This document shows positions 35,856 through 43,055 of a stretch of DNA of 64,000 bases, piece after piece. The stretch's first letter is position 1; each line of letters starts with the position of its first letter. The stretch lies in contig PABK01000004.1 of NCBI GenBank assembly GCA_002699145.1, forward strand, positions 1 to 64,000. Reading direction: 5' to 3'. The translations under genes were made by a program, and so were the position numbers. The DNA is from Halioglobus sp. Lineage in GTDB: Bacteria > Pseudomonadota > Gammaproteobacteria > Pseudomonadales > Halieaceae. The notes beneath the pieces were generated by a model. That model did not search any database, was not told where the DNA came from, and saw nothing but the letters and a program-made list of their open reading frames with translations.

Positions 35856-37505
35856 CTACATGTTCGGGTAGTTCGGCCCGCCGAAGCCCTCGGGGGTGAC
35901 CCAGACGATATTCTGTGCCGGGTCCTTGATGTCACAGGTCTTGCAGTGCACGCAGTTCTGCCCGTTGATCTGGAAGCGTTTCTCCCCGCCCTCGTCCTCG
36001 ACCACCTCGTAGACGCCCGCCGGGCAGTAGCGCTGCGCCGGCTCGTCGTACAGCGGGTAGTTCTGCGCCATCGGGATGTCCGGGTCCTTCAGTACCAGGT
36101 GACAGGGCTGGTCCTCCTCGTGGTTCGTGTTGGACAGGAACACCGAGGACAGCTTGTCGAAGCTGATCTTGCCGTCCGGTTTCGGATAGTCGATTTTGGG
36201 CATGTCCGCGGCGGGCTTGAGGCACGCGTGGTCCGGTTTCGGGTCCGCCAGGTTGATCGGCAGCTTGCCCTGGAAGATGCCCTGGTCGATAAAGGCCAGC
36301 GCCGGGCCGATGAAGGTGCCGAACTTGTGCAGGTAGGCGCCGAAATTACGCCACTTGTGCAGCTCCTCGTTCAGCCAGGAGGCGTTGAACCTGTCCGCGT
36401 AGGCGCTCAGGTCGGTACCGCCCGCGGCGCCCCCGGCCAACGCCTCGTACAGGGTCTCGCCAGCCAGTGTGCCGGACTTCAGCGCCGTGTGCGTGCCCTT
36501 GATGCGCGCGAAGTTCAGCGTGCCGGCGTCATCGCCCACCAGCAGGCCGCCGGGGAAGCTCATTTTCGGCCGCGACCTGGGCCCGCCCTTGATCAGCGCG
36601 CGGGCGCCGTAGGAAACACGGGTGCCGCCCTCGAGGTAGTGGCGGATTTTCGGGTGCTGCTTCCACTGCTGGAACTCGTCGAAGGGCGACAGGTGCGGGT
36701 TGTCGTAGCTCAGCGGCACCACGTAGCCGATGTATACCTGGTTGTTCTCGCCGTGGTAGAGGTAGGTACCGGACGCGGTGTTCTTCTGCGCGGGCCAGCC
36801 CGTGGTATGGATGACCAGGCCGGGCTTGTGTTTGTCCGGCTCGATGTCCCAGATTTCCTTGAAGCCGATGCCGTAGTGCTGCGGGTCGCAGCCGGCGTCC
36901 AGCTCGAACTTGCGGATCAGTTGCTTGCCCAGGTGGCCGCGACAGCCCTCGGCGAATACCGTGTACTTCGCGTGTAACTCCATGCCGGGCATGTAGGAGT
37001 CCTTGTGACTGCCGTCCTCGGCGATGCCCATGTCGCCGGTGGCGATACCCTTGACGCTGCCGTCGTCGTGGTACAGCACCTCGGCGGCGGCGAAGCCGGG
37101 ATAGATTTCCACGCCCATGCCCTCGGCCTGTTCCGCCATCCAGCGGCACACGTTGCCCAGGCTGATAACGTAGTTGCCGTGGTTCTTGAAACCCGGCGCG
37201 AACAGCAGCGGTACGCTCACCGCGCCGCTGTCGCCGGTCATGAACAGCACCTGGTCCTCGCTCACCTCGACGTTGAGCGGGGCGCCATTGTCCTTCCAGT
37301 CCGGGAACAGTTCGTTCATCGCCCGCGGGTCCATCACCGCGCCGGAGAGGATATGCGCACCCACCTCGGAGCCTTTCTCGACCACGCAGACGGTGATTTC
37401 TTTGTCGTTTTCCTGCGCCAGTTGCATCAGGCGGCAGGCAGTGCCGAGCCCCGCCGGGCCAGCGCCGACGATGACCACGTCATATTCCATAGATTCGCGT
37501 TCCAC
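35856..37505 (-). CDS. etfD: Electron transfer flavoprotein-ubiquinone oxidoreductase
   Basis: ETF-QO passes electrons from the ETF of acyl-CoA dehydrogenases to ubiquinone at the membrane. The 549-residue product starts MERESMEYDVVIVGAGPAGL (FAD motif), has a central quinone-binding region and a C-terminal 4Fe-4S cluster with Cys in CPAGVYE and CVHCKTCDI. Length is normal and all cysteines are present. In Pseudomonas it is directly divergent from etfBA; here four other genes separate them. Confidence 0.96.
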   Translation of the reverse strand: MERESMEYDVVIVGAGPAGLGTACRLMQLAQENDKEITVCVVEKGSEVGAHILSGAVMDPRAMNELFPDWKDNGAPLNVEVSEDQVLFMTGDSGAVSVPLLFAPGFKNHGNYVISLGNVCRWMAEQAEGMGVEIYPGFAAAEVLYHDDGSVKGIATGDMGIAEDGSHKDSYMPGMELHAKYTVFAEGCRGHLGKQLIRKFELDAGCDPQHYGIGFKEIWDIEPDKHKPGLVIHTTGWPAQKNTASGTYLYHGENNQVYIGYVVPLSYDNPHLSPFDEFQQWKQHPKIRHYLEGGTRVSYGARALIKGGPRSRPKMSFPGGLLVGDDAGTLNFARIKGTHTALKSGTLAGETLYEALAGGAAGGTDLSAYADRFNASWLNEELHKWRNFGAYLHKFGTFIGPALAFIDQGIFQGKLPINLADPKPDHACLKPAADMPKIDYPKPDGKISFDKLSSVFLSNTNHEEDQPCHLVLKDPDIPMAQNYPLYDEPAQRYCPAGVYEVVEDEGGEKRFQINGQNCVHCKTCDIKDPAQNIVWVTPEGFGGPNYPNM

Positions 37506-41179: not shown

Positions 41180-41932
41180 ATGAAGGTTCTTGTAGCCGTG
41201 AAGCGTGTGGTTGACTACAACGTCAAGGTGCGCGCCAAGTCCGATGGCAGTGACGTCGATTTGAACAACGTCAAAATGGCCATCAACCCCTTTTGTGAGA
41301 TCGCCGTCGAGGAAGCGGTACGCCTGAAAGAGGCGGGCACCGCCAGCGAGGTCATCGCGGTCTCCATCGGCGACAAGAGCTGCCAGGAGCAGATTCGTAC
41401 CGCCCTGGCACTGGGCGCGGACCGCGGCATCCAGGTCGAAACCGAGGGCAGTGTCGAGCCGCTGGTCGTGGCCAAGCTGCTCAAGGGCGTGGTCGACAAG
41501 GAGCAGCCGCAGCTGGTTATTCTCGGCAAGCAGTCCATCGACGGCGACAACAACCAGACCGGACAAATGCTGGGCGCGCTGGCCAACATGGGCCAGGGCA
41601 CCTTCGCCTCGGAAGTGGTGGTGGAGGGCGACAAGGTCAATGTCACCCGCGAGGTGGACGGCGGCCTGCAAACCGTCAGCCTGAACCTGCCCGCGGTGGT
41701 CACCACCGACCTGCGCCTGAACGAGCCGCGCTACGCGTCGTTGCCCAACATCATGAAAGCCAAGAAGAAGCCCCTGGACGTCTACACGCCCGATGACCTG
41801 GGCGTTGCAGTCACCGCACACCTGACACAGATCAAGGTTCAGCCCCCCGCGGAGCGCCAGGCCGGTATCAAGGTCGAGGACGTGGACCAGCTGGTGGACA
41901 AACTGAAAAACGAGGCGAAAGTTATCTCATGA
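41180..41932 (+). CDS. etfB: Electron transfer flavoprotein subunit beta
   Basis: EtfB binds AMP and the recognition loop contacts acyl-CoA dehydrogenases. The 250-residue product starts [18 protein letters not shown] and contains the ETF-beta signature ([20 protein letters not shown] region, about 178-200). The etfA start overlaps its stop by four bases. Length is typical. Confidence 0.96.
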
Positions 41933-42858
41933 GTACTCTGGTAATCGCAGAACACGACAACGGCAGCCTCAAGGCCGCCACTCTCAACGCGGTGGCGGCG
42001 GCCCAGGGGCTGGGTGCGGACATCGACATCCTGGTTGCCGGCGCAGGCTGCGGCGGCGCTGCCGAGGCGGCCGCGGCCGTCCCCGGCGTGGGCAAGGTGC
42101 TGGTCGCCGACAACGCCGCCTACGAGCACCAGCTGGCGGAAAACATCAGCCTGCTGGTCGCCGAGGTCGGTGCGGCCTACGACAACATCGTCGCCCCGGC
42201 TACCGCCAACTGCAAGAACTTCATGCCGCGTGTGGCGGCGCTGCTGGATGTGGGCCAGATCTCCGACATCACCGCGGTGGAGTCGGCGGACACTTTCCAG
42301 CGCCCCATCTACGCCGGCAACGTCATCGCCACGGTGCAGAGCGCCGACGCGAAAAAAGTCATCACCGTGCGCACCACCGCCTTTGACGCGGTGGCCGCCG
42401 AGGGCGGCAGCGCCTCCGTCGAGGCCGTCGACGCGGTGCACGACGCGGGCATCTCCGCGTTCGTGGGCGAGGAAGTCGCCGAGTCCGACCGTCCTGAACT
42501 GACCTCTGCCGATATCGTCATCTCCGGCGGGCGCGGTATGCAGAACGGCGAGAACTTCAAGCTGCTCGAGGGTATCGCCGACAAGCTGGGGGCAGCCATC
42601 GGCGCGTCCCGCGCGGCGGTGGACGCGGGCTTTGTTCCCAACGATATGTAGGTAGGGCAGACGGGCAAGATCGTCGCCCCGGACCTGTATATCGCCGTGG
42701 GCATCTCGGGCGCCATTCAGCACCTGGCGGGCATGAAGGACTCCAAGGTCATCGTTGCCATCAACAAGGACGAGGACGCGCCGATCTTCCAGGTCGCCGA
42801 CTACGGCCTGGTGGCCGACCTGTTCGACGCCCTGCCGGAGCTTGAATCCAAGCTCTGA
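41929..42858 (+). pseudogene. etfA: Electron transfer flavoprotein subunit alpha, interrupted by an in-frame amber codon
   Basis: The frame from 41929 encodes 240 residues of EtfA, ends at TAG (42649-42651), and then continues without frameshift for 68 more codons to TGA at 42858. The continuation reads [20 protein letters not shown], the FAD-binding part of every EtfA. Joined, the product would be 309 residues, the normal length. EtfA proteins carry PND(Y/M)QVGQTGK here, so TAG most simply replaces a CAG Gln codon by one C-to-T change. The truncated product would lack the FAD site. EtfB and ETF-QO are intact. Sequencing error, amber suppression, or real recent loss are all possible. Confidence 0.85.
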
Positions 42859-42879
42859 TAGGCAGCAAGCGTTACGCGA

Positions 42880-42906
42880 AACCGGCCCTTGAGGCCGGTT
42901 TTTTTT
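42880..42906 (+). terminator. Intrinsic terminator of etfBA
   Basis: AACCGGCC (42880-42887) pairs with GGCCGGTT (42893-42900) around a five-base loop and is followed by six T residues. It sits 21 bp after the etfA stop. Confidence 0.92.
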
Positions 42907-42920
42907 GGCTGTACCAGCTC

Positions 42921-43055
42921 GGTTCTCTGGCCCAGGGCGCAGACGCTGACCCTGGGTAGAACCTGTTACGGGCAGGTTCTCTGGCCCGGGGCGGAAACGC
43001 TTTCTGGCCTCGGAAGGCTGAGATGCTCGGCCTGAAAGCGTTTCCGCCCCGGGCC
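42921..43055. repeat. Two adjacent long inverted repeats
   Basis: The first hairpin (42921-42963) has outer arms GGTTCT/AGAACC and inner arms CCCAGGG/CCCTGGG. The second has a perfect 22-bp stem, 42983-43004 with 43034-43055 (5' arm GGCCCGGGGCGGAAACGCTT plus two bases), with a 29-nt loop containing further GGCC/GGCC complementarity. Both are preceded by GGTTCTCTGGCCC, so they look like diverged copies of one unit. They fill most of the 322-bp gap between etfA and the antiporter. Confidence 0.85.

Follow-up and report, generated by a model that had tools for sequence, protein, structure and literature searches.

An in-frame TAG codon in the only etfA gene found in a Halioglobus sp. genome record

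The genome record of Halioglobus sp. (Halieaceae) contains an ETF alpha gene, etfA, that is interrupted by an in-frame TAG codon. The premature stop is a real feature of the record and is ordinary in kind; the etfA that carries it is otherwise intact and is the only one found. It is very probable that a glutamine codon became TAG through a single-base change that is private and very recent, or through a consensus error, and that this TAG is read as a stop. Taken separately, a consensus error is put just short of an even chance, and a real allele appreciably short of one.

The window, i.e. the whole stretch of DNA analysed, comprises positions 1–64,000 (64,000 nucleotides) of contig PABK01000004.1 of assembly GCA_002699145.1. 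It sits in contig 20 of the genome studied (G000), which has 5,201,423 bases in 61 contigs and is rated 99.5% complete with 2.17% contamination. Halieaceae relatives are marine bacteria and are not known to be pathogens; the named loci nearest to the etfA region, within the best 80 of 510 confirmed loci, come from records of Haliea, Halioglobus and Seongchinamella and from Halieaceae MAGs. Features are listed in Table 1.

Table 1. Coordinates of the etf genes and of other split genes in the same genome (window positions unless a locus is given)
Feature	Position	Strand	Remarks
etfB	41180-41932	+	250 aa, ends with TGA, intact; Pfam ETF E 1.3e-38; terminal stop only
etfA frame	41929-42858	+	309 codons + TGA, single internal stop
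Internal TAG, codon 241 of etfA	42649-42651	+	
etfA codons after the stop (n = 68), end of FAD-binding domain	42652-42855	+	Pfam ETF_alpha 53-81; 1efp_A 240-307
ETF-QO	35856-37505	-	intact, own terminator TAG; Pfam Fer4_ETF_QO E 3.2e-50
Terminator-like hairpin, 3' of the original etfA TGA	42878-42902	+	
HerA-like helicase split by TAG	L184:18034-19509 (G000 C51)	-	HerA_C 9-429 and 455-497
ThuA-GSDH-cytochrome c gene split by TAG	L203:1187-4603 (G000 C57)	-	GSDH 1-64 and 66-223
TonB-dependent receptor split by TAA	L191:15727-18417 (G000 C3)	-	Plug + barrel pieces

The gene is broken by one substitution-type stop without insertion or deletion, and the frame is continuous across the TAG. The Pfam ETF_alpha family is matched in the same frame on both sides (profile positions 1-50 upstream and 53-81 downstream), and a six-frame profile search returned the domain complete (1-81, E 3e-36), enclosing '1 TAG'. 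Both domains of ETF alpha (EtfA/FixB) proteins are present, PF01012 (E 4.7e-39) and, in two pieces, PF00766; the uninterrupted full-length frame of such proteins is lacking, with the TAG at codon 241. Frame, Pfam and six-frame search thus confirm the initial annotation, in which the TAG was said to split a continuous etfA frame. The span given there began at 42646, one codon ahead of the stop, and is corrected here; its other coordinates are accurate.

The pieces before and after the stop both align to the solved EtfA chains 1efp and 1efv, the latter piece to residues 240-307 of 1efp_A with E 2.1e-33. This alignment and the downstream ETF_alpha match bear out the proposal that the remaining 68 codons encode the FAD-binding end. 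The locus is also similar to a typical ETF system in that etfB adjoins and ETF-QO lies in the window, but it differs from the EtfA of the solved chains in having the in-frame TAG. The genes for EtfB and ETF-QO, described earlier as intact, have a terminal stop only, and each has a family match.

A real change would end translation after residue 240 and so remove the second half of the FAD-binding domain, a segment that is presumably the carrier of much of the FAD site in solved ETFs; ETF would thus be predicted to be unable to hold FAD, and ETF-QO would not receive electrons from ETF-dependent acyl-CoA dehydrogenases. The use of ETF is not obligatory for every acyl-CoA dehydrogenase. With a consensus or sample-variant error instead, the etfA gene would be intact. 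The seriousness of a real stop, which had been expected to abolish fatty-acid beta-oxidation through ETF, is underlined by the search for a second etfA. None was found in the assembly, which has a single PF00766 match and two PF01012 matches only, these being etfA and etfB of this locus.

Matches to acyl-CoA dehydrogenase domains number 45 in the genome, and none has a stop inside the domain. The ETF-alpha domain (PF00766) is matched in 121 of 140 genomes of the family. With etfA so widely kept and so many acyl-CoA dehydrogenase domains present, a true null allele would be expected to carry a high cost. In Pseudomonas aeruginosa, etfA and etfB appear to be essential, and a role in electron transfer is predicted, not proven, according to the accessible part of the source (PMC11890623). 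This apparent essentiality, together with the likely cost, speaks for error or suppression rather than for real loss. A tolerated etfA null allele would be surprising, and the odds of error are raised. Were the stop real, the strain would be a natural ETF-null test of whether an acyl-CoA-dehydrogenase-rich bacterium can survive without ETF. Were it an error, automatic annotation would miscall etfA as a pseudogene and ETF-dependent beta-oxidation as lost.

The stop is private to this genome. Codon 241 was compared in the best 80 of 510 confirmed related loci, where it is CAG in 60, CAA in 19 and CAC in one, with no stop in any. The homologues had been said to carry glutamine, and they do so at 79 of these 80 loci; the sole histidine codon is that of HTCC2148, where the end of etfA is itself broken by frame changes. 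A survey of PF00766, which covers the 81-position domain only, gave a full-length match with an internal stop in G000 alone among the 121 genomes. One other stop was seen there, in a fragment in G028, which is taken as HTCC2148. A stop conserved among relatives, as in programmed readthrough, is thus found neither in the 80 loci nor in any other full-length match of the 121 genomes.

The gene of the marine gammaproteobacterium HTCC2148 (DS999223.1) resembles the one described here in being a Halieaceae etfA record that is broken in the same domain. It displays several frame changes in the last quarter (loci L014 and L122), however, in contrast to the single stop in G000. Recurrent breakage at the same place was considered and rejected, as these frame changes are several and probably reflect low-quality sequence. 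Odd codons flanking the TAG were likewise dismissed as a sign of error, since a related locus (L037) has the same two codons after the site.

The codons after the stop are under strong constraint. Compared with 19 relatives, the 68 post-stop codons show pN of 0.0065-0.036 and pS of 0.38-0.98, and the 240 pre-stop codons show pN of 0.041-0.102. Across the whole of EtfA, only the stop and Gly 27 are private to G000. Neither the relaxed constraint nor the further disabling changes of a long-standing pseudogene are found. Strong constraint downstream and the small number of private residues leave no time for decay since the change. Selection on the post-stop frame as protein lasted until very recently or continues today, and this purifying selection means that the stop is recent, or an error, or suppressed.

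In-frame stops in bacteria are described as widespread, mostly short-lived and with constrained flanks, and a substantial fraction of raw candidates is expected to be artefacts, in the sections of the paper that were available (Belinky et al., 2021, PMC7918605). The etfA stop resembles the cases treated in those sections, being a young TAG at a glutamine codon with constrained flanks, and an example printed there likewise alternates TAG and CAG. The stops in the sections available are, however, common to two or more genomes, which limits artefacts, whereas the G000 stop is in one genome. No account of this etfA stop appeared among the papers listed on etfA nonsense mutations, Halieaceae premature stop codons or related subjects.

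An alternative is that the TAG is read as an amino acid, by an amber suppressor tRNA or through leaky termination, often enough to give a working EtfA. This is thought unlikely, although several observations are in accord with it: the strong constraint after the stop, the retention of many acyl-CoA dehydrogenase domains with no second etfA found, and the possibility of readthrough raised for constrained in-frame stops in the available text of Belinky et al. (PMC7918605). A search for a suppressor tRNA with a CUA (CTA) anticodon, as had been proposed at the outset, was negative. The genome has 37 tRNA matches; ARAGORN assigned anticodons to 36, none of them CTA, and the 37th is a truncated tRNA-Gly. 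A pattern for CTA tRNAs, the general form of which recovers 36 of the 36 typed tRNAs, gave two hits in G000, and ARAGORN called neither a tRNA.

The tRNA set of the assembly is incomplete, so that a suppressor gene could be unseen. Absent among the typed tRNAs are tRNA-His, tRNA-Ile(GAT) and tRNA-Pro(TGG), and a tRNA-His pattern gave 11 matches, ARAGORN finding no tRNA in the 10 that were examined as loci. Despite the completeness of 99.5%, the missing tRNAs probably sit in assembly gaps, and the negative result for CTA is incomplete for this reason. The truncated tRNA-Gly(GCC) copy (L128:219-293; G000 C49:66518-66592) lies between a tRNA-Glu gene and an intact tRNA-Gly gene.

The use of TAG elsewhere in the genome argues against suppression. 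In the G000 sample, 216 of 736 coding segments (29%) end in TAG, compared with 128 of 422 (30%) in the relative G115, and ETF-QO itself has this terminator. RF1 is intact (556 bits, no internal stop). Neither the depletion of TAG nor the loss of RF1 that would mark a reassigned stop codon is thus seen. The RNA after the etfA TAG also has no unusual structure, as it folds no better than shuffled sequences (z 0.54). Of the three explanations offered initially, the suppressor tRNA is weakened by the evidence on tRNAs, RF1 and TAG usage; base-call error and recent loss stand.

Other split genes were found in this genome. The scan, based on codon usage, sampled 1,264,000 of the 5,201,423 bases (the window and 60 further stretches) and gave 77 same-frame neighbours. 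Of these, 27 have a distant start and were examined with Pfam (L208 in its second half alone). In the other 50, an ATG lies within 8 codons, and family checks were centred on the 27. Four of the 27 proved to be split genes, etfA included, three by TAG and one by TAA. The rest (23) are neighbouring genes that are different or complete, with L175 and L186 unsettled in one half. The pair at L172:9411 has no family match on either side.

Alignments of the HerA-like helicase and of the GSDH gene to relatives continue through both stops. At the helicase stop, eight relatives have glutamine in five cases and histidine, arginine or alanine in the others; the C-terminal tail after the stop scores 21.7 against a Pfam cut-off of 22 bits. 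The residue at the GSDH stop is tryptophan in five of seven other matches, one of which is a G000 paralogue, and phenylalanine or tyrosine in the rest; here the first piece scores 23.1 against a cut-off of 25. The split of the TonB-dependent receptor rests also on relatives with a single open frame of 836-864 residues, and seven relatives have aspartate (six) or glutamate (one) at the stop site. Flagged stops in relatives, three in helicase rows and one in a TonB row of G117, were rejected, as each lies shortly upstream of where the gene itself starts; the same holds for a flagged stop in a match on G000 C12. As the TonB check in relatives consists of the one G117 row among the flagged matches listed, relatives may have split TonB genes as well.

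A true change of the genetic code, or a pyrrolysine-type recoding of TAG, is hardly credible. A TAG codon does occur inside three conserved frames, but the homologous residues differ at these sites (glutamine at 79 of 80 loci in etfA, at five of eight in the helicase, and mostly tryptophan in GSDH), so that no single amino acid would fit a reassignment; TAG is a common terminator with RF1 intact, and no relative has the etfA stop. Splitting by TAG only, which could have been a sign of recoding, was dropped as an argument since the fourth split is a TAA, and the residues at the four stops, aspartate or glutamate at the last, argue against recoding.

TAG accounts for three of the four splits, which also accords with suppression. 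Yet three TAG to one TAA is close to the expectation from transitions in a G+C-rich genome: when counted, sites that one transition would turn into TAG are more numerous than the corresponding sites for TAA and TGA, and the stops in etfA, helicase and GSDH each fit one C-to-T or G-to-A change. A particular form of suppression, in which the tRNA gene is missing from the assembly, TAG is read in the etfA, HerA-like and GSDH genes, and the organism is a natural amber-suppressor strain with low-level ETF, is considered quite improbable.

The detection power of the scan in G000 is 0.66-0.70, and extrapolation from the four splits at this power suggests ∼16-25 such genes genome-wide. In-frame stops are a background in this genome record, and they need read support before biology is built on them. 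A looser scan of G000 added the far-start candidates L169, L180:13493 and L211. In L180:13493, the second half forms a complete AlgH-like domain; L169 and L211 were not borne out as splits, L169 having no match in its first half.

As a control for the rate of splitting, the relative G115 is weak, with a G+C content of 54.7%, a power of 0.24 with strict and 0.51-0.55 with relaxed settings, and a sample of 800,000 bases. It gave three far-start candidates; two are different adjacent genes, and L288 (43 + 50 residues) matched nothing. There are no confirmed splits in G115 versus four in G000, with ∼1.6 expected in G115 at an equal rate. Given the low power and the sample, no excess of splits is claimed for G000.

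It was also considered that EtfA might be made in two pieces, with the C-terminal codons translated separately by a restart. An in-frame GTG (42697) and an ATG (42733) are present downstream of the stop, but the GTG is 16 codons past the stop and within the conserved FAD-binding segment, and no obvious ribosome-binding site was seen by eye in the 20 bases ahead of either codon. Among the 34 same-frame neighbours from the first 464,000 bases of the sample, 32 have a start within 11 codons. The N-terminal piece, moreover, ends midway through one Pfam domain. Two-piece translation is accordingly regarded as very improbable, and a recent change or an error that ends the frame at codon 241 is preferred.

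The survey does not support ETF loss as a trait typical of the family. Of the 19 genomes that lack an etfA match, nine were examined for etfB and ETF-QO. In G134, G044, G070 and G047, the neighbour gene was found close to a contig end, and for this reason the missing etfA match is probably a gap. Five genomes (G117, G119, G121, G075 and G082) have no match to the etfA, etfB or ETF-QO families, which may represent either a gap or a true loss.

Downstream of the etfA frame, the terminator-like hairpin is a weak feature, as the region has two such sites compared with 1.8 by chance. Further downstream is an inverted repeat of 27 bases (42983-43055) that is 96% complementary with a spacer of 19 bases. 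A 22-base core of this repeat recurs at two other places among the stretches of G000 examined (L115 and L225) and is REP-like.
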